From positions 243,456 through 294,441 of the forward strand of contig NZ_JAMTCS010000008.1 in assembly GCF_024171955.1 (NCBI RefSeq): a DNA stretch of 50,986 bases. The letters run 5' to 3'. Both the position numbers and the translations under genes were made by a program. The notes below the pieces were generated by a model, which saw only the letters and a program-made list of their open reading frames with translations, searched no databases and was not told where the DNA came from. Positions 1 to 43,425 of the stretch are shown piece after piece. The stretch is from Promicromonospora thailandica (GTDB lineage: Bacteria > Actinomycetota > Actinomycetes > Actinomycetales > Cellulomonadaceae). Every line of letters begins with the position of its first letter. Position 1 is the stretch's first letter.

Positions 1-95
1 TCCAGGGGACCGTGCGTACACGGGGTGCGTACCTGGCGGCTCCGACCTTGCGTTTCCGCAGGTCAGAGGTGGTGTCCGGAGGGGGACTTGAACCC
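1..95. repeat. attL: left copy of 95-bp attachment repeat
   Basis: Positions 1-95 are identical to 39,883-39,977 and diverge at base 96. Bases 70-95 match the end of the tRNA-Leu gene (CCA end, acceptor 3' strand, T arm) as read on the minus strand. Bases 1-69 are identical although they lie outside the tRNA. The repeat may extend left of the window. The sequence after 95 does not rebuild a tRNA: only part of the acceptor could pair and the T stem is broken, so this is a tRNA fragment. Confidence 0.9.
12..32 (+). promoter_or_regulatory. Two putative integrase arm-type sites (GTGCGTAC) in attL
   Basis: The octamer GTGCGTAC occurs at 12-19 and 25-32, 13 bp apart. The same octamer or its complement recurs only next to the attachment regions (197-204, 208-215, 39,833-39,840, 39,894-39,901, 39,907-39,914) in what I could see. 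This is the pattern expected for binding sites of the integrase N-terminal arm-binding domain. The function is inferred, not shown. Confidence 0.55.
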
Positions 96-196: not shown

Positions 197-215
197 GTGC
201 GTACCAAGTACGCAC
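197..215. promoter_or_regulatory. Inverted GTGCGTAC/GTACGCAC pair upstream of int
   Basis: GTGCGTAC, a 3-base spacer and GTACGCAC form a perfect inverted repeat 21 bases before the likely integrase start. It shares its octamer with sites inside the attachment repeats. It may be the P-arm integrase site and could also autoregulate int. Confidence 0.55.
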
Positions 216-235
216 GTCGTGGCACCATTCTCGGC

Positions 236-1501
236 ATGCGCACACCGCAGTATCACCGGGCCAAGGACGGCAGCGAGACGTGGAAGGTTCGGTACCGCCC
301 CGGCGGCCGCGCCACCCCCGAGACCAGCATCACCTTCACCTCGGCCGCAGGCGCGAACGCCTTCGTGAAGCTGCTCTCCGACGTCGGCCCGAAGCGCGCC
401 GTCGAGATCCTCAAGGCGCGCCAGGCCCACACGACCGAATCCACGCCGACGGTCGCGCAGTGGTGCACGAAGCACATCGAGTCGCTGTCCGGGGTGCAGG
501 CCGACACCATCGCGAAGTACGAGGCCTTCGTGCGCAACGACCTCGGCAGCCTCGCCGAGCTGCCGATCACCGCGGTCACCGACGACGACGTCACCGCCTG
601 GGTGAACCACCTCGCCAAGAAGGTGTGGCGCGGCCGCCCGACGTCGGGCAAGACGATCAAGAACAAGCACGGGTTCATGTCCGCGGCCTTCGCGCGTGCC
701 GAGGCGAAGGGCCTCGTGCCGTCCAACCCGTTCCACGGGACCACACTCCCCCGCACGGTGAAGGAGCCCATGACGCCCCTCACGCCGGCCGAGTACGCAC
801 GGTTCCGGGAGTGCTTCACGCCGTACTGGCAACCGCTCGTGCAGACCCTGTTCGAGACCGGCCTACGCTGGGGTGAGGCGACGGCGCTCCAGGTCCGTGA
901 CCTCGACCTCAAGGCGACCGACGCGGCGGGCGACCCGGCGCCCACGCTGCGCATCGAGCGGGCGTGGAAGAAGTCCGGCAAGATCGGGCCGCCGAAGTCG
1001 GAGCGCGCGCGGCGCACCATCGCGCTGTCGCCGGAGCTCGCCGCCGTCCTGGCCCGGGTGACCCGGGGGCGTGTCGGCCAGGCATGGGTGTTCCTCAACC
1101 AGCGCGGCACCCCGGTGCGGCACGCGACCTTCCACGACAACGTGTGGCTCCCTGCGGTGCGCCTGGCCAACGGTGAGCCGGCGCAGAAGAAGGGCGCGAA
1201 GCGGGTCGCTCGCCGCCGGGACGCTGACGGGAACGTCCTCGAGCCCCTCGACCCGCCGATCGGGAAGCGGCCCCGGATCCACGACAGCCGACACTCGTGC
1301 GCCTCGTGGCTCCTGGCCCAAGGCGTCCCGCCGACGGACGTGCAGGACCACCTCGGGCACGAGTCGTTCGCGACTACCGATCAGCTCTACCGGCACATGA
1401 TGCCCGGTGCGCCTGGGCGGGTTCGAGCGGCGCTCGCGGCGGCGGCAGCGCAGCCGGCGGCGGCCGCGGGGGTCACGCAGCCTGTGGCGATCGGCGCATA
1501 G
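236..1501 (+). CDS. int: Tyrosine recombinase / phage integrase
   Basis: Site-specific recombinase that would integrate and excise the prophage at tRNA-Leu. The 421-residue protein has an N-terminal arm-binding region (about 1-55), a SAM-like core-binding domain (about 70-155) and a catalytic domain. The catalytic set is visible: Arg211 in GLRWGEA, the His349-Asp-Ser-Arg352 box followed by His353, His375 in LGHES, and the nucleophile Tyr385 in LYRHM. Length is normal for actinophage integrases. ATG at 236 is chosen because similarity-like sequence (MRTPQYHRAKDG) starts there. A GTG at 197 would add 13 residues, but it begins inside the inverted arm-site repeat. It lies directly beside attL, as usual. 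The C-terminus ends in an Ala-rich tail. Confidence 0.96.
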   Translation: MRTPQYHRAKDGSETWKVRYRPGGRATPETSITFTSAAGANAFVKLLSDVGPKRAVEILKARQAHTTESTPTVAQWCTKHIESLSGVQADTIAKYEAFVRNDLGSLAELPITAVTDDDVTAWVNHLAKKVWRGRPTSGKTIKNKHGFMSAAFARAEAKGLVPSNPFHGTTLPRTVKEPMTPLTPAEYARFRECFTPYWQPLVQTLFETGLRWGEATALQVRDLDLKATDAAGDPAPTLRIERAWKKSGKIGPPKSERARRTIALSPELAAVLARVTRGRVGQAWVFLNQRGTPVRHATFHDNVWLPAVRLANGEPAQKKGAKRVARRRDADGNVLEPLDPPIGKRPRIHDSRHSCASWLLAQGVPPTDVQDHLGHESFATTDQLYRHMMPGAPGRVRAALAAAAAQPAAAAGVTQPVAIGA

Positions 1502-2733: not shown

Positions 2734-2743
2734 TAGCCCCCGC

Positions 2744-2804
2744 TGCCCGGACGGACTCCGGGCAAGAGCAAGGCCCCGCGCGCTCACGACGCATATGCGG
2801 GGCC
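2744..2804 (+). terminator. Two consecutive hairpins between regulators and early genes
   Basis: TGCCCGG/CCGGGCA (2744-2750 with 2758-2764) and GGCCCCGC/GCGGGGCC (2772-2779 with 2797-2804) lie in the only sizeable gap of the early operon (2734-2824). There is no T tract. They may act as an attenuator, or as a terminator that needs antitermination, separating regulators from the downstream early genes. Confidence 0.4.
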
Positions 2805-2824
2805 CTACCGGAAGGAATCATCCC

Positions 2825-2983
2825 ATGGCGAAGAGCCAGAGCAACAGCCCCGAGCCGGAGCAGCCGCCGACGGTCAAGCCGTCGACCTACGACCCCGAGC
2901 GGGCCGGGGCGACGCCCGCACAGTCGCGGGCCCTCCTCGCCGGCGCGTACTTCGACGACGAGCCGAAGGACGGTGACCTCTGA
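2825..2983 (+). CDS. Small acidic hypothetical protein
   Basis: 52 residues, hydrophilic and Pro-rich, with the centre KPSTYDPERAGATPAQSRALLAGAYFDDE. Ribosome site GGAAGG precedes ATG 2825. It has no transmembrane segment or cysteines. Its stop overlaps the next ATG (TGATG). Function unknown; it is typical of the small early proteins of actinophages. Confidence 0.65.
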   Translation: MAKSQSNSPEPEQPPTVKPSTYDPERAGATPAQSRALLAGAYFDDEPKDGDL

Positions 2984-3138
2984 TGGCCCGCGGCGAGCAG
3001 CCCGAGCTGCCGCAGCGCGTCATCGGCAAGAACCTCCCCAACATCACGCCGGCCGAGGCCGAGGAGGCCATCGAGCTGCGCGACGAGCGGATCGCTCGCC
3101 GCGTCGAGGCCGAGGGCTCGAAGGGCGGGCTGTACTGA
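2983..3138 (+). CDS. Small hypothetical early protein
   Basis: A 51-residue frame, MARGEQPELPQRVIGKN..., with a central acidic/basic helix (PAEAEEAIELRDERIARRVEAEG). It is joined on both sides by TGATG overlaps, which supports it as a real coupled gene. No family recognised. Confidence 0.6.
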   Translation: MARGEQPELPQRVIGKNLPNITPAEAEEAIELRDERIARRVEAEGSKGGLY

Positions 3139-3626
3139 TGGACGACTACCTCAACGGCGACATCGACCAGGGGCCCCAGCTCGGCGCGCACCTGCCCGGC
3201 GCCTGGCGCCCAGGTGACCGCTTCCGGCTGGCCGACCGCGGCGACCGGTACGACGGCGTCGAGGGATCGGTCCGCAGTGTCTACGCCACGCGCGCCGCCG
3301 GCGAGCAGGTGCACGTCACGCACGATGACGGCACCTACACGACCTGGCCTGCAGCGCGCCTGGAGCGCCCGGCCACCCCCAGCACCCCCGGCGGCGCGGT
3401 GACGAAGCCGAACCCCGCGCCGCCGGCGGGCACCACTCCGAGCCTGGTCCAGCTCGACCGCAACGAGGCTGCCCACGCGGTGGCCGAGGCTGCCGCGGAG
3501 TTCGTCCGCCTCGACCTGCAGCGCATCGAGGACGGCCTCGACGTGGCGGGCCAGGACCGGTGGGAGGAGTTGCGGCTCGGCCTGCACGACGCCGTCCGCG
3601 ACTACCGCGCGGCGGGTGCCCAGTGA
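3138..3626 (+). CDS. Hypothetical early protein with beta-rich N-terminus
   Basis: 162 residues. The first 75 look beta-rich and resemble a small barrel (GDRFRLADRGDRYDGVEGSVRSVYATR, then VHVTHDDGTYTTWPAARL). A Pro/Thr linker leads to a helical C-terminal part (about 110-162). It is coupled to both neighbours by overlaps. Function unknown; a KOW/SH3-like fold would be a guess. Confidence 0.65.
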   Translation: MDDYLNGDIDQGPQLGAHLPGAWRPGDRFRLADRGDRYDGVEGSVRSVYATRAAGEQVHVTHDDGTYTTWPAARLERPATPSTPGGAVTKPNPAPPAGTTPSLVQLDRNEAAHAVAEAAAEFVRLDLQRIEDGLDVAGQDRWEELRLGLHDAVRDYRAAGAQ

Positions 3627-3967
3627 GCGCCCGCGCGCGTCACGCCCGCCGCCCGGGGCAGCCCCGGAGCACCTGGCCGGTGGTCGTCGGTGTCCCGGTC
3701 GAGTTCGACCCGGTGCCGTGGCCGTCGCCGCTCGGCGTGCTGGAGACCATGAAGCTGCAGGACCGCATGGCGGTCGACCAGTGGGACGCGATCCGCGATG
3801 AGTTCGGCGTGATCGCGGCCTACGAGCGGACCTACCCGCGGTACTGGCGTCGCCGTGTGCGGCGCGTGCTGCGGCAGTTCCGCAACGCGTACCTCGTCGT
3901 CCTGACAGGCACGTACCTCTCCGTCGGTGTCGTCGGCCCCGTGGCCCACGGCATGGGGTGGTGGTGA
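3623..3967 (+). CDS. Hypothetical basic protein with C-terminal hydrophobic segment
   Basis: 114 residues starting at GTG in a GTGA overlap. The middle is a helix (LQDRMAVDQWDAIRDEFGVIAAYER) followed by a strongly basic stretch (RRRVRRVLRQFR) and a hydrophobic tail that may be a single membrane segment (AYLVVLTGTYLSVGVVGPVAHG). It is probably membrane-associated; no family recognised. Confidence 0.6.
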   Translation: MSARARHARRPGQPRSTWPVVVGVPVEFDPVPWPSPLGVLETMKLQDRMAVDQWDAIRDEFGVIAAYERTYPRYWRRRVRRVLRQFRNAYLVVLTGTYLSVGVVGPVAHGMGWW

Positions 3968-4287
3968 CCGTGCACACGATCCGCACCGACCTCGCCGGCC
4001 TCGCCGTCGTCGCGGGCATCGTCGTCGGCACCGTCTCGGGCGTGCTCATCGCCGAGGAGCCCGTCACCCGCACGCCCCAGATCTGCCAGACCGCGTTCAA
4101 CCTCAACGACCAGGCCTTCGTGATCATGAAGGACCTGAACGAGGCCGTCCGCCTGCGCGGCGACGCGCTCGACAAGGACACGTACGCGATCCACGACGCC
4201 GAGGTGAACCACCTCCTGGCATCGCTCAACGCCCTCGCCCCGGACGCCGACGCGGCCGAGGCCGACTGCCGGGCAGGCATCCAGTGA
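3964..4287 (+). CDS. Small N-terminally membrane-anchored protein
   Basis: 107 residues with one N-terminal hydrophobic segment (LAGLAVVAGIVVGTVSGVLIA, about 10-30) and a mainly helical outside domain containing two cysteines. No lipobox is present. GTG 3964 is chosen for the GTGA overlap; GTG codons at 3958 and 3961 are alternatives. Unknown function; it could be a superinfection-exclusion or holin-like membrane protein. Confidence 0.6.
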   Translation: MTVHTIRTDLAGLAVVAGIVVGTVSGVLIAEEPVTRTPQICQTAFNLNDQAFVIMKDLNEAVRLRGDALDKDTYAIHDAEVNHLLASLNALAPDADAAEADCRAGIQ

Positions 4288-4436
4288 GCCGCGCCGTACG
4301 CGCCGCGGCCGCCACGGCCGGCGCCGTCGTCGGTCTCCTGGTGTCCCTCGCCGTCTACGCCCTCCTGGCCGGCCCGCCCGCCCACGACCCGGCACCGGCC
4401 CCCGGCCCTGCCCCGACCACCGGGATCGCGGCATGA
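4284..4436 (+). CDS. Small single-span membrane protein
   Basis: 50 residues beginning at GTG 4284 in a GTGA overlap. There is a hydrophobic segment at about 6-30 (TAGAVVGLLVSLAVYALLAG), then a Pro/Ala-rich tail. It is one of three consecutive tiny membrane proteins here. Function unknown. Confidence 0.5.
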   Translation: MSRAVRAAAATAGAVVGLLVSLAVYALLAGPPAHDPAPAPGPAPTTGIAA

Positions 4437-4528
4437 GCCCCGAGGCCTTCCTCATCCTCTCCGTCTCCGTCACGGGCCTCGCCCTCTGGGCGACCGTCCA
4501 CGTCATGAACAGGTGGTTGCACCGATGA
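4433..4528 (+). CDS. 31-residue single-span membrane peptide
   Basis: The frame MSPEAFLILSVSVTGLALW... ends in WLHR. It is almost entirely one transmembrane helix. It is linked by ATGA overlaps on both sides, which is the main argument that it is expressed. Function unknown. Confidence 0.45.
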   Translation: MSPEAFLILSVSVTGLALWATVHVMNRWLHR

Positions 4529-4956
4529 TCCCCCTGGACCAGATCACTCCCGCCCCGTCAGCGCTCGCGGCGACGCCCGCCGACTTCCTCTCCGTCGCGT
4601 TCCCGGAGCACGGCCGCACGATCGACCCGGACCGCGACGGCGTGTGGATCAAGCACTCGTGGTTCCCCGCCGCCCTCGTCCCGGCCACCCCGCCGGCGCC
4701 CGCGCCCGCCCCGTCCGCGCGGGTCGACGTGAACCTCACGCTGCTCGACCCGCTCGACGTCGTGGAGCAGCACCTCGACATGGACGACGTGCCAGACGTC
4801 CACCCGCAGGATCTGCCGCCGTGCCTGCCGACGCGGCGCGAGCAGCTGGACGACGTCATGCACCACCCGGCCACCGAGATCGCGGCTGCGATCTGGGCGA
4901 CGGGCTCCGCCGAGCCGGGGGTCCTGCTCGGCGCGATGACCGGAGCGGACGCGTGA
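4525..4956 (+). CDS. Hypothetical early protein
   Basis: 143 residues starting at ATG 4525 (ATGA overlap). The sequence is Pro/Ala-rich in the middle (about 55-70) with a C-terminal helical part containing DDVMHHPATEIAAAIWATG. No metal-binding motif and no membrane segment. Unknown function. Confidence 0.65.
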   Translation: MIPLDQITPAPSALAATPADFLSVAFPEHGRTIDPDRDGVWIKHSWFPAALVPATPPAPAPAPSARVDVNLTLLDPLDVVEQHLDMDDVPDVHPQDLPPCLPTRREQLDDVMHHPATEIAAAIWATGSAEPGVLLGAMTGADA

Positions 4957-5468
4957 GCGCAACGCAGACGCCCGACGGCGTGACGCCGTCGCGCGAGAAC
5001 GTGACAGGCGACGTCGCAGGCGTGACACCGTCGCGCGACGCCGTGACGCCGACGTCGCAGGACGTGACGCCGGACCCGACGTCGCACGCCGCGGTGCGCG
5101 ACGTCGCCGCGCAGCTGGGCGTCGCCCCCGCCGACGTCGTGCACACGCTGCGCGACGTCGCACGAACGATCGCGAACGACCCGTCCCTGTGCGACTGGTG
5201 CGAGGGCACGATCCCGGAGGAACGTCTCCGGCTCGGCGCCCGGTACTGCAGCGAGAACCACCGCAAGGAGGCGTCGCGACGTCGCACCGCGCGACGTCGC
5301 ATGTTCGCCGAGCACGCCGCGACGGGTGCGACGTCGGGTTCGTGCGACCGGTGCGGCGCCGCATGCCACATCGAGAACGCGCTGTGCGACGCCTGCTTCG
5401 ACGCCCTGACCGACCAGGAGCGCGACGCCCGCGACGCGTCGCCGAACGACGTGGACCCGGGCGCATGA
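4953..5468 (+). CDS. Zinc-ribbon hypothetical protein with VTP repeats
   Basis: 171 residues. The N-terminal 45 contain repeated VTPSR/VTP units encoded by a 42-bp DNA repeat. A helical region follows (AAQLGVAPADVVHTLRDVART), then two cysteine motifs: CDWC...CSENH (about 79-105) and CDRCGAACHIENALCDAC (about 130-150). These suggest two zinc ribbons and nucleic-acid contact. The coding DNA holds nine copies of CGACGTCG, so the gene may double as a binding array. No family name can be given. Confidence 0.65.
   Translation: MSATQTPDGVTPSRENVTGDVAGVTPSRDAVTPTSQDVTPDPTSHAAVRDVAAQLGVAPADVVHTLRDVARTIANDPSLCDWCEGTIPEERLRLGARYCSENHRKEASRRRTARRRMFAEHAATGATSGSCDRCGAACHIENALCDACFDALTDQERDARDASPNDVDPGA
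4980..5336. repeat. Cluster of nine CGACGTCG palindromes plus 42-bp direct repeat
   Basis: CGACGTCG occurs at 5009, 5050, 5077, 5099, 5132, 5153, 5277, 5292 and 5329. A GTGACRCCGTCGCGCGA unit occurs at 4980-4996 and 5022-5038, 42 bp apart. The octamer also appears singly elsewhere (4755, 5844), but not at this density. It looks like an iteron-type array embedded in a coding region: a possible replication origin or binding site for an early protein. Confidence 0.5.
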
Positions 5469-5707
5469 GCGCGACGGAGCAGCAGCTCGCGTACGCGTCG
5501 CACGCGCTAGAGGCGACACGGCGGGCGCGGGAGGACCGCGCTCGGCACCACGCCCTGTCGATCGCCGAGACGGCGATGACCATGGCCGAGGCCCGTCGCC
5601 TGCTGCCCTACGTCATCGCCGCCCACGGCGATACCCCCTCGCTCCAGAAGAAGCGCCGCGACGCGCTGGAGCGCGACATCGACCACCGCAGGAGGAACGC
5701 CGCATGA
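5465..5707 (+). CDS. Small helical hypothetical protein
   Basis: 80 residues, charged and predicted largely alpha-helical (EQQLAYASHALEATRRARED, MAEARRLLPYVIAAHG), with a basic C-terminus. It is coupled to the methyltransferase downstream by an ATGA overlap. Function unknown; an accessory role for the methylase is possible but unsupported. Confidence 0.6.
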   Translation: MSATEQQLAYASHALEATRRAREDRARHHALSIAETAMTMAEARRLLPYVIAAHGDTPSLQKKRRDALERDIDHRRRNAA

Positions 5708-7431
5708 CGAACCTGACCATGACCGACCTGTTCTGCGGCGCCGGCGGCTCCTCCACGGGCGCCGTCTCCGTGCCCGGGGTGACCGTGCGCCTGGCCGCGA
5801 ACCACTGGGACAAGGCCATCGAGACGCACAACACCAACCACCCCGACGTCGACCACCTCCAGGCCGACATCAGCAACACCGACCCGCGGTACGTCCCCCA
5901 CACCGACCTGCTCTGGGCCTCCCCAGAGTGCACCAACCACTCCCGCGCGAAGGGCCGCAAGCAGGCCCTGCAGCCCGACCTGTTCGGCGAGACGATCAGC
6001 GAGGACGCCGTGCGGCGCTCGCGGGCGACCATGTGGGACGTCGTCCGGTTCACCGAGGCGCACCGGTACCGCGCGATCATCGTGGAGAACGTCGTCGAGG
6101 TGGCCGACTGGGGCGACGACGGCACGGCGAAGGGTGGCCTGTTCGACGCGTGGCTGCTGGCCATGCGGAACATGGGCTACGACCACCGCATCATCTCGCT
6201 GAACAGCATGCACGCCCAGCGGATGGGCCTGCCCGCGCCCCAGTCCCGTGACCGCGTGTACATCGTGTTCTGGCGCCGCGGCGAGCGGGCCCCGGACTTC
6301 GAGTGGATGCTGCGCCCGCAGGCGTGGTGCAGCTCGTGCGAGCGCGTCGTGGAGGCCCGGCAGTGGTGGAAGAAGGGCGACGGCCGCCGCCCGGGCCGGT
6401 ACCGGCAGCAGTACCTGTACCGGTGCCCGAACACGGCCTGCCGCAACCAGGTCGTCGAGCCGGCGTGGCTCCCGGCGTCCTCGATCATCGACTGGTCGAA
6501 CCCCGGTGTGCGCATCGGCGACCGGGACAAGCCCCTGTCGCCGAAGACGATGCGCCGCATCGAGGTCGGCATCGAGCGGTACTGGCAGCCGCTGACCGTC
6601 GAGATGGTCAACGGGTACGACGCCGCCGACCCCCGCCACCCCGGCTACGGCAACCCCGGCTCGTACTACCGGGCCTGGCCGACCTCCGACGTCGTGCGCA
6701 CCATCCCCGCCACGGACGGCACCAAGGCGCTCGCGATGCACCCCCTCCTGATCCCGGTCGAGGGCCGGGCCGCCGAGGACCGCGCGCGCTCGATGATGTA
6801 CCCGTCCCGGGCCATCACGACGCGCGCCGAGACCGGCATCGCCTACCCGCCGTTCATCGCGGAGCTGCGCGGCGGCGGGTCGACGGCCCGGCCGACGGGC
6901 GAGGCGCTCGCCACCGTGACGGCGTCGGGCAACCACCACGCCCTGGTGGTCCCGTCCGGCGGGACGTGGAACGAGGACGCCCGCCCGGCGTCCGACCCGG
7001 TGCGGACGCTGCACACCCGCGAGGCGTACGGGCTCGTCGTGCCCTACTACGGCAACGGACAGGCGGTGCCTGACGGCCGCGCCCTGCCCACCGTGACGAC
7101 GGTCGAGCGCCACGCGCTGATCCACCGGAACAACGGCGGCGGCGCGGAGATGACGACGCCGGCCAGCGAGCCGGTGCGCACGATCACGACGGCCGGCCAC
7201 CAGTCGGTGCTGCAGTCCGACCGGCCGACGATCGACGTCAACGACGTGCGCTTCCGAATGCTGGAGCCCGGCGAGATCAAGCAGGCCATGGCCTTCCCCG
7301 GGGAGTACGTCATGGTCGGGACCCGCCGCGAGCAGGTCAAGCTCGCCGGCAACGCCGTCACGCCGCCCGCCGCTCGGGACCTGGTCGCGACCGTCACCGC
7401 GGCGATCACCGGAGAGGACGTGGCCGCGTGA
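5704..7431 (+). CDS. DNA (cytosine-5) methyltransferase
   Basis: Transfers a methyl group from S-adenosylmethionine to cytosine C5. Conserved motifs are in order: I (DLFCGAGG, about 8-15), IV (SPECTNHS with catalytic Cys76), VI (GluAsnVal at 128-130), VIII (QSRDR, 180-184) and X (GNAVTPPAA from 549). At 575 residues it is longer than typical C5 enzymes because of a large insertion between VIII and IX. The insertion includes a four-cysteine zinc ribbon (CSSC...CPNTAC, about 210-250) and several repeat-like segments around PVRTI/TVT that probably form the target-recognition domain. No restriction endonuclease is next to it, so it is likely an orphan that shields phage DNA or affects gene expression. 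Confidence 0.93.
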   Translation: MTNLTMTDLFCGAGGSSTGAVSVPGVTVRLAANHWDKAIETHNTNHPDVDHLQADISNTDPRYVPHTDLLWASPECTNHSRAKGRKQALQPDLFGETISEDAVRRSRATMWDVVRFTEAHRYRAIIVENVVEVADWGDDGTAKGGLFDAWLLAMRNMGYDHRIISLNSMHAQRMGLPAPQSRDRVYIVFWRRGERAPDFEWMLRPQAWCSSCERVVEARQWWKKGDGRRPGRYRQQYLYRCPNTACRNQVVEPAWLPASSIIDWSNPGVRIGDRDKPLSPKTMRRIEVGIERYWQPLTVEMVNGYDAADPRHPGYGNPGSYYRAWPTSDVVRTIPATDGTKALAMHPLLIPVEGRAAEDRARSMMYPSRAITTRAETGIAYPPFIAELRGGGSTARPTGEALATVTASGNHHALVVPSGGTWNEDARPASDPVRTLHTREAYGLVVPYYGNGQAVPDGRALPTVTTVERHALIHRNNGGGAEMTTPASEPVRTITTAGHQSVLQSDRPTIDVNDVRFRMLEPGEIKQAMAFPGEYVMVGTRREQVKLAGNAVTPPAARDLVATVTAAITGEDVAA

Positions 7432-7787
7432 TCGTCCTGGACCTGCCCCGCTCTGCCTGGTGGTCGGCGAACGACCGGCTCCACTGGCAGGCAGTGCGCC
7501 GCAAGAAGAACGCGGTCAAGACCCTCGCCCGCGCGGCGGCGGCGGACGAGCCCCGGCTGGAGCGGGCCGAGCTCGCCGTGCTGGTGCACTACCCGACCGC
7601 CGTCCGCGCAGACCCGCACAACGTCGCGTCCACGGTCGTGAAGGCGGCCATCGACGGCATCGTGCTCGCCGGCGTGCTGCCCGATGACGACGACGAGCAC
7701 CTGACCCACGTCTCGTTCGAGCGCGGCCCGAAGACCTCCGTCCCGGGGATCTACCGGCTGACGCTGACCTTCAAGGAGGTGGCCTGA
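7428..7787 (+). CDS. rusA: RusA-like Holliday junction resolvase
   Basis: Small endonuclease that would resolve branched DNA made during phage replication and recombination. The 119-residue length and pattern fit RusA: an N-terminal strand with SANDRLHWQ, then the acidic set RADPHN (Asp62), KAAIDGIVLAG (Asp76) and the DDDDEH cluster (about 86-90). It is coupled by a GTGA overlap to the methyltransferase. Starts at GTG 7428. Confidence 0.85.
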   Translation: MIVLDLPRSAWWSANDRLHWQAVRRKKNAVKTLARAAAADEPRLERAELAVLVHYPTAVRADPHNVASTVVKAAIDGIVLAGVLPDDDDEHLTHVSFERGPKTSVPGIYRLTLTFKEVA

Positions 7788-8385: not shown

Positions 8386-8633
8386 TGCCCACGTCCCCGC
8401 GGGTCCGCGCGGAGGTGCTCTCGGCGCTGGAGCACTGCGAGGTCTGGGCTGACGGGTTCCCCACCGACACGCCGGAGTCCCTGTACGTCCTGGGCTGGAC
8501 CGATGCCCTGCGGGTCGCGCTGTCCATCGTGGACGGCGCCGACCACGTCACGGCGCTGGCCCAGGCCCAGGCGACGGCCCGACTCCGCCACTACTCCACC
8601 AGCTACCCCACCGAGGAGAACCGAGACCGATGA
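8385..8633 (+). CDS. Hypothetical early protein
   Basis: 82 residues, predicted helical (VRAEVLSALEHCEVWADGF; LYVLGWTDALRVALSIVDGADH). The sequence is typical of a small soluble phage protein. It overlaps both neighbours by a few bases. Unknown function. Confidence 0.65.
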   Translation: MPTSPRVRAEVLSALEHCEVWADGFPTDTPESLYVLGWTDALRVALSIVDGADHVTALAQAQATARLRHYSTSYPTEENRDR

Positions 8634-9610
8634 GCAAGTCCATCTCTCAGCAGCACGCGGAGGCGCTGCACGCCATCGCGGCGGCCGGCCACGCCATCGC
8701 GGACGCGATCCGCGAGAAGCCCTCGTCCACTCGGGGCGTCCTGCGCGCGCCGGGTACGCCGATGCGCGGCGCGCGGCCTTCGACCGAGCACACCCCCACG
8801 AAGTTCGACCTGCAGCGCCGTGTGCGCGACGGGCAGATCGACGAGCAGATCGAGGCGATCGGCAGTCGCCTCACCGACGCCGCGGGACGGTTCCGCGGCG
8901 GCCAGGCGGCGTTCGAGTCGCCGCTCGTGCCCATGGAGATCGCCGACGCCCCGGACATCGACAACGTCCCGGTGGCGCAGAGCACGCACGCGCTCATGGG
9001 CGCCGTCGTGGAGATGCACCAGGACGTCCGCGAGGTGCTGGCGAAGATCCGCGCTCACGGCGACGTCCACCCCGGCGTCGGCCTCCGGGCGAACGGGGGC
9101 TGGGTCAAGCCCGACGCGCCCCGGATCGTCAGCGAGCAGAGCCTGACCGAGTGCGTCGTGCCCGGAGCCACCATCCGGGTGCCGGACCCGCGCCTGACCT
9201 TCTCCCCGGAGTTCCGTCGGGACCTGGACGAGGAGCTCGCGCGGCTCGGCGTGCGGCTCGGCGACCGCATCCGGGCCGCCATGGGCCTGGCACCAGCCGT
9301 CGCCCGCGCCGTCCAGCGCGGCGAGATCGCCGACGCCGCGCACCGCGCGCTCGCCCCGTGGTTCACAGAGGGCGCCGTCGGCGCGCGGATCGACGCCTCG
9401 CAGGCCGTCGCCGACGCCGTCGTGCACCTGGTGCAGGACCTCGCGGCCGTGCCCCGCCTGCTGCCGACGCTGGAGGAGCTGGCCGCTGCGCTCGCGCAGC
9501 AGTACGGCGACCACGAGAGCCTGGAGGCCATCGAGGAGCCCATCACGCGCCGCCAGTACATGTCCGACGCCCGCTCGATCCTGGCCCTGCTGCGGGGTGA
9601 GACCCGGTGA
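8630..9610 (+). CDS. Large hypothetical early protein
   Basis: 326 residues, mainly charged helices. It has no cysteine cluster, no membrane segment and no nucleotide-binding loop. A region around 205-225 ([22 protein letters not shown]) may be coiled coil. It starts in an ATGA overlap and is coupled to the clamp-like gene that follows, which hints at a partner of DNA metabolism. I do not recognise a family. Confidence 0.7.
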
Positions 9611-10659
9611 CCGCGTTCACGGTCCCCCGCGGCGACCTCACCGCGGCGCTCGCGGCCGTCATGCCGCACGCGGGCACGGAGCACCCGTGGGGCACGCTCC
9701 GGTTCGCGCCGGGCGAGCAGACGCTGCGCGTGTGGGCGACGGACGGCTTCACGGCCGCGCACGCGAAGGTCCGGCTGTTCGAGCACGAGGACGCGGGCCG
9801 GGAGGTGTTCGACCTGGCTGCGCTCGACGCCGGCAACGTGCTGCAGGTGTTCCGCGCCACGGGCGGGAAGGACGAGCGGGCGATGCGTGACGCGGAGGAG
9901 ATCCGCCTCGACGTGTCGCCGCTGGCGAAGCAGCTCACGGTGTCTGAGGTCGGATCGCTGGTCGACGGCAGCGTGCTGCAGGTCCCGCTCGTGGAGCACA
10001 CGGGCGAGGACCGGTACCCGAACGTGCCCGCCTTCATGGCGACGTTCATCGCCGCGCCCGTGGTCCGCTCGGCGTGGCAGCTCGGCCCGGAGCGGATCTC
10101 GTCGTTCCTCAAGGCCGCGAAGGCGTACGACGACTTCCTGCGCGTGAAGGCGTGCGGCACGGGCCTGGCGGTCGCGATCGGGTCGAAGTTCGTCGGCGTG
10201 ATGTCGGCGGCCCGACTCGACGAGGAGACCCTGCGCGAGATGGAGGACGAGGCCGTGCGCTGGGGCCACGACCTGAACTCCTGGGGTGAGCCGCGCCGGT
10301 CGCCGTTCGTGAAGGACCCGACGCCGCCGCAGGAGGACGGCCAGAAGACGTTCGACCTGCGCACGGCGACGGGCGTGGTCGACGTCGTGGACCTGGGCAA
10401 GGCGGCCGAGGCGGCCGTCGACCAGGACGCGGCCCTGGTGCTGGCGGCGGCCGAGCTCGTCGTGCCGACCCAGTACGGGTCGGTGGCGATGCTGCAGCGC
10501 AAGCTCCGCGTGGGCTTCGCGAAGGCCGGCCACCTGATGGACCGCCTGGAGGCGGCGGGGATCGTCGGCCCGTACGAGAGCGACAAGGCGCGTCAGGTGC
10601 TCGTCGTCGACCTGGACAAGGCCCGCGAGCTGCTCGCCACCGAAACCGAGGAGGGCTGA
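9607..10659 (+). CDS. Sliding-clamp-like protein fused to FtsK-gamma-type winged helix
   Basis: 350 residues in two parts. Residues 1 to about 205 resemble a reduced beta-clamp: [19 protein letters not shown], then [18 protein letters not shown], a RYPNVPAF element, and [11 protein letters not shown] like the end of DnaN proteins. After a linker, residues about 272-343 match the FtsK gamma domain, the winged helix that reads oriented sequences: [21 protein letters not shown], then [23 protein letters not shown] and ARQVLVV. The gamma part is clear; the clamp part is a weaker pattern match. The combination suggests a DNA-tracking processivity factor with sequence preference, or a replication initiator. 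It is coupled to the genes on both sides. Confidence 0.7.
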
Positions 10660-11063
10660 TGGGCTACGGCGTCTACGAGGAGCCCGGGAACGGTCGCTGG
10701 GCCGGGTACATGGTGCCCGCCCCGTGCGACTACCCCGGCTGCGAGGCCGAGATCGACCGCGGCCTCGGCTGGAAGTGCGAGGAGCACGTCGAGTACACCG
10801 CCGACGGCACCGAGAGCGAGGTCGAGGGCTGCGGCCTGTTCTTCTGCGAGGAGCACCGGTACGAGACCAGCGACCACCACACGGTCAAGCCGAAGCCGGA
10901 CAGCGGCCACTGGACGGCCTGGCAGCTCGTGGACGACTCGTGGGAGCAGTGGCGGGTCGAGAACCCGGAGCGCGTGGCCAAGATGCGCGCGCTCGTCACC
11001 GAGGCCGACCTCACGTGGGCCCGCGCGCAGCTCGACGACCCGGAGGACGACGACCGTGGCTGA
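10659..11063 (+). CDS. Cys-rich hypothetical protein
   Basis: 134 residues with a likely zinc site: CDYPGCEAEI, WKCEEHVEY, GCGLFFCEEHRY (about 24-70). A Trp-rich C-terminal half follows (GHWTAWQLVDDSWEQWRVENPE). The start ATG overlaps the preceding stop. This type of CxxxC/CEEH protein is common in actinophage early regions; its role is unknown. Confidence 0.65.
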   Translation: MGYGVYEEPGNGRWAGYMVPAPCDYPGCEAEIDRGLGWKCEEHVEYTADGTESEVEGCGLFFCEEHRYETSDHHTVKPKPDSGHWTAWQLVDDSWEQWRVENPERVAKMRALVTEADLTWARAQLDDPEDDDRG

Positions 11064-14774: not shown

Positions 14775-14851
14775 CGCGGTGTGGAGGAGCTCGGTCACCT
14801 CGCTGGCCTCATTCGTCAGAGACGCCCGTTCGAATCGGGCCACCGCTACCA
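14775..14851 (+). tRNA. Initiator-like tRNA-Met (CAT)
   Basis: A 77-base cloverleaf folds fully: acceptor with a C1/U72 mismatch, D stem GAGG/CCTC, anticodon stem CTGGC/GTCAG with loop CTCATTC (anticodon CAT), a 4-base variable loop, and T stem GCCCG/CGGGC with TTCGAAT loop. It ends in discriminator A plus encoded CCA. The unpaired first acceptor position and the A11-U24 pair are hallmarks of initiator tRNA. Only one of the three usual G-C pairs at the base of the anticodon loop is kept as G-C (29-41). Base 37 is T, which is unusual. It may be functional or degenerate. Confidence 0.8.
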
Positions 14852-39882: not shown

Positions 39883-39977
39883 TCCAGGGGACCGTGCGTA
39901 CACGGGGTGCGTACCTGGCGGCTCCGACCTTGCGTTTCCGCAGGTCAGAGGTGGTGTCCGGAGGGGGACTTGAACCC
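39883..39977. repeat. attR: right copy of the 95-bp attachment repeat
   Basis: Identical to 1-95. It includes GTGCGTAC at 39,894-39,901 and 39,907-39,914 and runs into the T arm of tRNA-Leu. Beyond 39,977 the sequence belongs to the tRNA 5' part and the host. Confidence 0.92.
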
Positions 39978-40039
39978 CCACGCCCGATAAAGGGCACTAG
40001 CACCTCAAGCTAGCGCGTCTGCCATTCCGCCACCCGGAC
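39952..40039 (-). tRNA. tRNA-Leu (GAG)
   Basis: 88 bases with the encoded CCA. Acceptor GTCCGGG pairs with TCCGGAC (final G-U), the discriminator is A, anticodon stem CTAGC/GCTAG surrounds loop TTGAGGT (anticodon GAG), there is a long class II variable arm (GTGCCCTTTATCGGGCGT) and T loop TTCAAGT. It is intact and should read CUC/CUU. Its 3' end is the integration target. Confidence 0.95.
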
Positions 40040-41496: not shown

Positions 41497-41553
41497 ACGG
41501 CCGGCGGCCGGGCCTCGCCGCGACTGTCGGTGGTTGCTGGCACACTGGCCGCC

Positions 41554-43425
41554 ATGACGCTCCCGGACGGCACCACCCCGGCCGCCGCCGCGCTCGACGT
41601 GGCGCCCACCCCCCTGGACGTGCTCCGTGACGTCTTCGGGTACGACTCGTTCCGGGGCGACCAGCAGGAGATCATCGAGACCGTGGCCCGCGGCGGCGAC
41701 GCCCTGGTGCTGATGCCGACGGGCGGCGGCAAGTCGCTGTGCTACCAGATCCCGGCGCTCGTGCGGCACGGCACGGGCGTGGTCGTCTCGCCGCTCATCG
41801 CGCTCATGCAGGACCAGGTGGACGCCCTGGCGGCGCTCGGCGTGCGCGCCGGGTTCCTCAACTCCACGCAGAACCCGGACGAGCGGCGTGAGGTCGAGCG
41901 GGCGTACCGGTCGGGCGAGCTCGACCTGCTCTACCTCGCGCCGGAGCGGCTCGGCGTCCCGGCCACGGCGCGGCTGCTCGACGAGGGCACCATCGCGCTG
42001 TTCGCCATCGACGAGGCGCACTGCGTGTCCCAGTGGGGGCACGACTTCCGGCCGGACTACCTGCGGCTGGGCGAGCTGGCCGAGCGATGGCCGGGCGTCC
42101 CCCGCATCGCGCTCACCGCGACCGCGACCCGGCACACGCACGACGAGATCGCCACGCGCCTGGGCCTGACCGAGGCCCGGCACTTCGTGGCCAGCTTCGA
42201 CCGGCCGAACATCACCTACCGGGTGGTGCCCAAGGACAACCCGTTCCGGCAGCTCGTGGACCTGCTGCGCACGGAGCACCCGGGCGACGCGGGCATCGTG
42301 TACTGCCTGTCGCGGGCATCGGTCGAGAAGACCGCGCAGCAGCTCTCGGAGCAGGGGTTCCGGGCGCTGCCGTACCACGCGGGCCTGCCGCCGGCCGTGC
42401 GCGCCGCGAACCAGGCGACCTTCCTGCGCGAGGAGGGCGTGGTCATGGTCGCGACCATCGCGTTCGGCATGGGCATCGACAAGCCGGACGTCCGGTTCGT
42501 CGCCCACCTCGACCTGCCCAAGTCCGTGGAGGGCTACTACCAGGAGACGGGCCGCGCGGGGCGGGACGGCCTGCCGTCGACGGCGTGGCTCGCCTACGGG
42601 CTGGCCGACGTGGTGCAGCAGCGCAAGATGATCGCCGAGTCCGACGGCGACCTGGCCCACCGGCGCCGGCTCTCGGCGCACCTCGACGCGATGCTCGCGC
42701 TCTGCGAGACCGTCGAGTGCCGCCGCGCCCAGCTCCTGCGCTACTTCGGCCAGGAGCACCAGGGAGCGTGCGGCGCCTGCGACACGTGCCAGAACCCGCC
42801 CCAGGCCTGGGACGGCACCGTGCCTGCCCAGAAGCTCCTGTCCGCGGTGTACCGGCTCGACCGGGAACGCAACCAGCGCTTCGGCGTCGGGCACGTGGTG
42901 GACATCCTGCGGGGTCGCGCGACGCCCAAGATCACGCAGTGGAGGCACGACGAGCTGACGGTGTTCGGCGTGGGCGAGGACCTGTCGGACGGCGAGTGGC
43001 GGTCGGTCGCGCGCCAGCTCCTGGCGCAAGGACTGCTGGAGGTCGACGCGAACCACGGCACGCTGCTGCTCACGGAGGCGAGCGGGGACGTGCTGGGCCG
43101 GCGGCGGGAGGTGCGGATGCGGCACGACCCGCGTCCGCAGGGCGGCGCGCGCCGTCCCGCGCGGTCGGCCGGGCCACGTCCCGAGGCGGCGGCGCTGTCG
43201 GACGACGACCTGGCGGTCTTCGAGCGGCTGCGCGCCTGGCGGGCGGCGGCCGCCAAGGAGCAGGGTGTGCCCGCCTACGTGGTGTTCCACGACGCGACGC
43301 TGCGGGCGGTCGCGACCGAGCGCCCCGCGGACGTGGCCGCGCTGAGCGGGATCAGCGGCGTCGGGCAGGCGAAGCTGGAGCGGTACGGCGAGGGGATCCT
43401 GGCGGCGCTGCACGCGACGGGGTGA
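41554..43425 (+). CDS. recQ: ATP-dependent DNA helicase RecQ
   Basis: 623 residues. SF2 helicase that unwinds 3' to 5' in recombination and repair. Walker A is [10 protein letters not shown], the DEAH box is in [16 protein letters not shown] with the aromatic-rich loop, motif III TATATR, motif [13 protein letters not shown] zinc site ([19 protein letters not shown]) follows, then an RQC domain (about 430-510) and a C-terminal HRDC domain (about 545-620). All motifs are intact. It ends 7 bases from the convergent dinB. Confidence 0.97.

Follow-up and report, generated by a model that had tools for sequence, protein, structure and literature searches.

The stretch of DNA considered here, referred to as the window, comprises 50,986 nucleotides of Promicromonospora thailandica (RefSeq assembly GCF_024171955.1, contig NZ_JAMTCS010000008.1, positions 243,456 to 294,441 of the forward strand) and includes a predicted prophage in which one gene joins a shortened sliding clamp to the gamma winged helix of the DNA translocase FtsK. 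This clamp-gamma gene (9607..10659, + strand) begins with GTG and encodes 350 amino acids. The clamp part is made up of three half-domains: a (9607..9792, +, about residues 1-62, with the order b-a-b-b-b), b (9793..10011, +, about residues 63-135, a strand, helices, and three strands in the model), and c (10012..10215, +, about residues 136-203, helices and three strands). A linker (10216..10383, +, about residues 204-259) leads to the gamma winged helix (10432..10605, +, residues 276-333). The reading frame is a real gene: its guanine-cytosine (GC) content by codon position (0.75/0.46/0.97) is that of coding DNA in a GC-rich genome, its two ends overlap the stop of the preceding gene and the start of the following one, and a full-length relative with 77% identity lies on another viral contig (L002). 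The upstream neighbor (8630..9610, +) encodes 326 amino acids without a convincing family match, and the downstream neighbor (10659..11063, +) encodes 134 amino acids assigned to phrog_18518, a family of unknown function.

The identity of the domains, a shortened sliding clamp and an FtsK gamma winged helix without a motor, is firm. The sole match of the whole protein in Pfam at E<=10 is FtsK_gamma (PF09397), which covers residues 276-333 with an E value of 1.3e-19 and 70 bits (cut-off 30.6), and solved FtsK gamma domains match the protein at E 1.4e-5. At E<=10 Pfam finds no motor family (i.e., no RecA-like alpha-beta domain) either in this protein or in four relatives with gamma (L005, L007, L060, and L062). 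A preliminary description of this DNA had assigned the first 205 residues or so to a shortened DnaN and the last 70 to FtsK gamma, with no FtsK motor. All three assignments and both boundaries agree with the present results, which rest on the Pfam matches for gamma and the lack of a motor, and on profile matches to DnaN together with the predicted fold for the clamp. The description had also proposed a profile search, which recovered gamma directly and DnaN by way of a family profile, and a structure prediction of the monomer, which matched sliding clamps; neither a fold unrelated to clamps nor a missing winged helix was encountered.

Residues 1-244 alone have zero Pfam matches at E<=10, TIGR00663 has no match to the protein at E<=1, and curated clamp models give sub-threshold matches (E 0.02-0.17) to two relatives (L060 and L067). 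A profile built from eight clamp-family proteins (A1) matches 16 PDB sequences at E<=10, 15 of them DnaN (best E 1.1e-4) and one unrelated (E 1.9). Within the host's order the same profile finds matches in 252 of 297 genomes; the top eleven places are long relatives in the window's own genome and nine others, while the weaker places, among the matches listed, mostly align over the first 50-80 positions. Seventeen of the 21 such loci checked (L028 and L040-L059) contain an open reading frame (ORF) with a DnaN-type C-terminal motif, the other four (L040, L052, L056, and L058) having failed the motif filter. Profile-profile comparison (hhalign) aligns the clamp family with host DnaN at E 1.5e-7 across 62 columns. 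When half-domains are compared one by one, leaving aside a truncated row (L046) and rows filled to less than 50% in a slice, half-domain a matches the first halves of DnaN domains II (IIa, 9.8e-12), I (Ia, 3.8e-5), and III (IIIa, 2.2e-3). By these profile comparisons the predicted clamp part is a homologue of DnaN, significantly so for the first half-domain, which is the counterpart of IIa.

An AlphaFold2 model of the protein, built on 18 sequences, has a mean predicted local distance difference test score (pLDDT) of 79.7 and a predicted template modelling score (pTM) of 0.60. It is laid out as a strand, a helix, and three strands (residues 2-56), a strand, two helices, and three strands (68-127), and helices followed by three strands (140-200); beyond the clamp, residues 206-218 form a helix, 224-259 are modelled with low confidence (pLDDT < 50), and gamma occupies 260-349. 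Foldseek returns 387 PDB matches for this model at E<=0.001, and the best 50 are all DnaN or PCNA. These clamp matches have TM-scores by query length of 0.34-0.40 and root-mean-square deviations of 7.6-9.7 Å over 252-274 columns, gaps included. The high deviations indicate that pieces of the chain match rather than that the whole chain superposes, the tail and linker being counted and the clamp being partial. The model contains three half-domains (1.5 domains, about 203 residues), as against six in three-domain DnaN (about 366 amino acids). The best match among viral models is a DnaN-like protein of a Rhodococcus phage (266 amino acids), followed by several short clamps of 200 amino acids.

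Proteins of the same design occur in 123 phage records, 22 from phages of Gordonia and 101 from phages of Mycobacterium, both counts including duplicates of one phage. The Mycobacterium branch includes Pclasvirinae (four of the six regions opened). The model of its member has a pLDDT of 73.2, the same layout as the window protein, and 36 PDB matches at E<=0.001, and its best 50 PDB matches comprise 47 DnaN or sliding-clamp entries, two entries titled “Mismatch Repair Complex”, and the gamma domain of E. coli FtsK. Both branches thus have a predicted clamp fold. Scans with other profiles added two relatives in genome contigs (A5) or none (A6 and A7). Among 65 matched plasmid records, none covers 80% of the window protein, and in the 15 listed the match is confined to gamma. 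The mycobacteriophage-type branch also has a member without gamma on a 202-kb viral contig (L101:4989-5702, 31% identity); used as a query, this member matched its own contig alone.

The names given to these proteins are varied. Of 60 of the 101 Mycobacterium rows, 57 are called FtsK- or EccC-like, two clamp, and one hypothetical; the 22 Gordonia rows are divided among FtsK-like (10), clamp (six), RusA (four), and hypothetical (two). FtsK- or EccC-like names therefore account for 67 of the 82 rows listed, and the translocase label is rejected here because the motor domain is missing. A genome announcement (PMC5764923) credits P1 phages with “an FtsK DNA translocase”; if this is the protein described here, that translocase would lack a motor. 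The RusA label likewise does not hold. Residues 1-244 give a faint processivity-factor match in PHROGs (E 0.05) and match PHROG 12598, labelled RusA (E 5e-25), but the region has a clamp fold and no RusA Pfam domain, and a separate RusA gene lies at 7428-7787, apart from the clamp gene that matches PHROG 12598. The label of PHROG 12598 is probably a misannotation copied from the naming of some Gordonia relatives. The preliminary description had regarded the fusion as a new arrangement. No paper describing a clamp-gamma fusion was found in the open-licence PMC literature, and to that extent the claim stands; it fails as a claim of uniqueness, since the same design recurs in the 123 phage records and the note of Gordonia phage Ewald gp44 already mentions both clamp and FtsK. 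The arrangement is not unique, is mostly mislabelled, and, as far as that literature was searched, is undescribed.

The gamma tail is an accessory, being present in some members of the family and absent from others. Ten genomes of the order have a clamp-type relative, with gamma on four (the window's genome, G121, G209, and G107) and without it on six, and gamma is likewise missing from six further relatives (L102, L103, L096, L097, L098, and L101). In a tree built from 30 rows, gamma is present in 18 and absent from 12; the best form of the tree requires six gamma changes and the bootstraps four to six, and well-supported branches force at least two. Twelve of the 30 rows belong to the mycobacteriophage branch, 21 of 33 loci were left out (mostly near-copies, two truncated), and the long branches L101, L068, L065, and L064 are unsure.

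Gamma is also attached to a different DNA-binding family in phages of other, gammaproteobacterial hosts. In Pfam, RdgC is followed by gamma in Pseudomonas phage PA8 (RdgC E 8e-108, gamma 9e-25) and in Vibrio phages K478b (9e-102 and 1e-22) and K242 (8e-29 and 6e-24); these fusions lie at L015:4014-5186, L016:2885-4150, and L017:3921-5141. The PA8 protein matches 622 phage records, in 51 of which the match extends over at least 80% of its length, more than the RdgC part alone; the other matches listed are to RdgC alone or to gamma alone. RdgC homologues are described in part of PMC11077077 as ring-shaped dimers. The RdgC-gamma fusions imply that ring-type DNA binders have acquired gamma on more than one occasion, and they suggest that the design is a broader one among phages and not a single accident. 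Two gamma-like sequences of other kinds were also observed: a weak match below the cut-off (E 1e-4) in a 443-residue frame (L116, G077:C1:2685816-2685965) that lies apart from both the FtsK and the clamp-type protein of its genome (G077), and a very short stand-alone gamma ORF of Brevibacillus phage Jenst (L018:4022-4141), annotated as “putative FtsK” and located near DNA polymerase genes.

The prophage, judged by a 95-bp direct repeat that marks its putative ends, spans window base 1 to about 39977. The candidate left attachment site (attL) is at 1..95 and the candidate right site (attR) at 39883..39977, the latter overlapping the 3' end of a tRNA-Leu(gag) gene (39952-40039, - strand); the search for these sites took in the first 2.5 kb of the window, the 3 kb preceding it, and 33-45 kb. 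A tyrosine integrase is encoded at 197..1501 (+), so that Xer is not needed for integration. Upstream of the clamp-gamma gene lie genes for a DNA methyltransferase (5704..7431, +) and the RusA-like Holliday junction resolvase (7428..7787, +; phrog_34, E 3e-18). In the six mycobacteriophage regions opened, the clamp-gamma gene is preceded by RecT and an exonuclease, which in five of them is RecE or exonuclease VIII, and is directly followed by RusA. ParB-like genes are found near the relatives in Gordonia phages MagicMan and Ewald, with a DnaQ-like gene near that of MagicMan, and the relatives in bacterial genomes have neighbors that, as judged by reading their sequences, appear ParB-, RusA-, RecE-, DnaQ-, and RuvC-like. 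From this gene context, the protein most likely belongs to a phage recombination and DNA-metabolism module. No replication DNA polymerase or helicase family was detected among the 27 prophage ORFs scanned in at least one library (19-35 kb and several small ORFs being outside the scan), which fits the use of host enzymes.

The function that we tentatively favor, at somewhat less than even confidence, is that of a DNA-anchored mini-clamp: a partial beta clamp that serves as an adaptor for host clamp-binding enzymes within the phage recombination module. The clamp part would keep the pocket that receives the clamp-binding peptides of host polymerases, ligase, and mismatch-repair proteins, and gamma, an optional winged helix on a flexible tether, would anchor this pocket to DNA. 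Host enzymes might thereby be brought to phage DNA or to recombination intermediates without a clamp loader. Pocket function, DNA anchoring, and recruitment are all inferred here from the features of the protein and its neighbors. The peptide pocket of the E. coli beta clamp, as listed in part of PMC11139829, includes Thr172, Gly174-Leu177, Pro242, Arg246, Val247, and Val360-Arg365, and we mapped these positions, like those of gamma below, from the published residue lists onto the phage protein. T45-D46-G47 (9739..9747, +) aligns with TDR of host DnaN and maps to beta Thr172-Asp-Gly174, and P138 (10018..10020, +) maps to Pro242; by this mapping the window protein has counterparts for Thr172, Gly174, Pro242, and Arg365, with changes at His175, Arg176, Leu177, and Pro363.

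Several observations weigh against the adaptor. P138 does not vary in alignments A1, A4, and A8, but four of 16 rows of the DnaN comparison lack it, and the DnaN-like M-P ending of the third half-domain, seen in nine of these rows, is absent from the other seven. In the window protein itself a Ser replaces the Pro of the DnaN MPxR ending, and Phe-Thr-Ala stands where E. coli beta has His-Arg-Leu; its pocket may therefore be altered. Half-domain b matches DnaN weakly (IIb 0.02, Ib 0.03). Half-domain c is closer to Ib (2.0e-4) than to IIIb (0.06), which weakens the pocket reading and makes its assignment to IIIb by the MPxR ending uncertain. BLASTP ties the Mycobacterium branch to the window protein through gamma only, the clamp parts of the two branches share 17-20% identity, and a clamp profile of the Mycobacterium branch (A2) has zero PDB matches at E<=10, so that the branches are joined by predicted fold and gamma and not by clamp sequence.

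In E. coli FtsK, N1296, R1300, and E1303 are named as key residues for reading the FtsK orienting polar sequences (KOPS) in a section of PMC2533119, and a role for R1300 is also given in part of PMC2680272. The R1300 position is occupied by H309 (10531..10533, +) in the window protein. It is Arg in all nine distinct host gammas, which come from 10 genomes of a single order, none of them of Mycobacterium or Gordonia. The 32 distinct clamp-gammas, a set that includes near-copies, have Arg there in 16 cases. The 16 without Arg comprise 12 proteins from Mycobacterium prophage contigs, partly near-copies, the window protein, L002, and two single relatives from bacterial genomes; the window protein and L002 have His at this position, and the others Gly, Trp, Leu, Ala, or Asp. 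Loss of this Arg counts against simple KOPS hijacking and fits a changed DNA specificity or another role. A second motif, QR-GN, is linked to XerD contact in the portion of PMC5357621 that concerns it, and the mapped Q, R, and G positions are kept in 31, 29, and 28 of the 32 clamp-gammas. The XerD-contact residues are a subset of those that contact DNA (PMC5052618, section 4), and conservation of QR-G therefore cannot separate a XerD role from a DNA role.

The protein might be a true encircling clamp, a homo-oligomer such as a tetramer that closes around DNA while gamma sets its loading site or orientation. With three half-domains per chain, a standard ring of 12 half-domains would close only as a tetramer, and we know of no clamp ring that an odd number of half-domains would fit. 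The predicted clamp fold and the occurrence of gamma on RdgC in phages of other hosts, given the ring-shaped dimers of RdgC homologues, speak for such a ring, whereas the missing KOPS-reading Arg in half of the distinct clamp-gammas speaks against it, and on balance we consider it fairly unlikely. A decoy that occupies the host clamp loader or clamp partners, throttling host replication, would be consistent with the statement in part of PMC11139829 that beta in monomeric form is unable to tether Pol III for processive replication and binds the loader subunit delta about 50 times tighter than dimeric beta does; a phage “sliding clamp subunit”, Waterfoul gp48, comparable by its label, is toxic when overexpressed according to a passage of PMC11797047. 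A decoy would have no need of a DNA-binding tail, however, and the relatives of the protein sit among recombination genes; we consider this account unlikely.

Activation of XerD by gamma, which would resolve phage or chromosome multimers, draws on XafT of phage TLC-phi. XafT resembles gamma, and QR-G is kept far more widely among the clamp-gammas than the KOPS-reading Arg. PMC9765430 names XafT as a phage-encoded XerD-activating factor. TLC-phi integrates through host Xer, which is not what was found for the window prophage, with a tyrosine integrase of its own and an attachment site in tRNA-Leu; many relatives also lack gamma, the XerD contacts are nested within the DNA contacts, and E. coli mutants are stated in a section of PMC2680272 to have retained residual KOPS recognition. 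Such an activator appears quite improbable. The preliminary description had further suggested that the protein may guide host polymerase to oriented phage sites or hijack FtsK/KOPS sites. As a hijacker it would occupy KOPS of the host or of the phage, giving replication an orientation or making use of FtsK. Gamma is recognizable and visibly close to the host gamma, and GAAGAAG, which we take to be the Lactococcus-type motif, is skewed in the prophage (7 vs 1). Guidance to host KOPS sites is not supported, and KOPS hijacking fares worst, so that we regard it as very unlikely: the KOPS-reading Arg is His here, GAAGAAG is reversed on the origin contig C7 (26 leading, 45 lagging) and even elsewhere (17/18 and 38/41), and GGGNAGGG is found 5 vs 3 times in the prophage stretch 236-36890 and nearly evenly in the host contigs (29/26, 42/38, and 42/40). 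The orientation test covered about 1.0 Mb of host DNA (contigs C7 and C8 and 400 kb of C3), with the origin set beside dnaN. No consistent skew was seen for GGGNAGGG, GAGAAGGG, or GGGCAGGG in these sequences (GAGAAGGG occurs 7 vs 2 times on C3), and the most skewed octamer on C7 is CGCTCGCG (90 vs 38). Because the host's own motif was not identified, the motif test is uninformative.

The DNA-anchored mini-clamp may be set beside several known systems. It shares with the DnaN beta clamp the predicted fold, homology of the first half-domain, and some pocket positions by mapping, but has 1.5 rather than three domains, carries a gamma tail, and matches no curated clamp model. Short phage clamps of about 200 amino acids (A0A6J5NB57 and A0A6J5S145 in BFVD) share their fold with the clamp part (TMt 0.72 and 0.67), whereas at 202 residues they are too small for an additional gamma tail. 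The FtsK/SpoIIIE translocases have the same winged helix together with the motor that the phage protein lacks, and the RdgC-gamma proteins of Pseudomonas and Vibrio phages bear the same tail on a ring-type DNA binder of another family. The small terminase of Bacillus phages Sam46 and Sam112 also places gamma on a motor-less phage protein that acts at a DNA site, but it is a packaging protein with gamma at the N terminus, and the role of single gamma-like phage genes is called unknown in the same part of that paper (PMC8190038). XafT is likewise phage-encoded and differs in the Xer-dependent integration of its phage.

More than a hundred phage records, most of them named as FtsK-like translocases, appear to contain a motor-less, clamp-type protein. 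A vague annotation is thereby turned into questions about the smallest working clamp, the placement of clamps without a loader, and the target of gamma outside FtsK. A broader and distinctly doubtful possibility is that phages of distant hosts have repeatedly made clamp-type or DNA-encircling proteins DNA-addressed by adding gamma, whose specificity then drifted from host KOPS; the mini-clamp would then be a minimal, loader-free clamp with its own reader.

Other features of the window lie apart from the clamp-gamma gene. A RecQ helicase gene with RQC and HRDC domains is found beyond attR (41530-43425). Inside the prophage, a tRNA-Met (cat) gene (14775-14851, +) lies between the early region and the terminase genes, and the early region itself (2734-5703) contains five scanned ORFs without a family match, some of which show a coding GC pattern.

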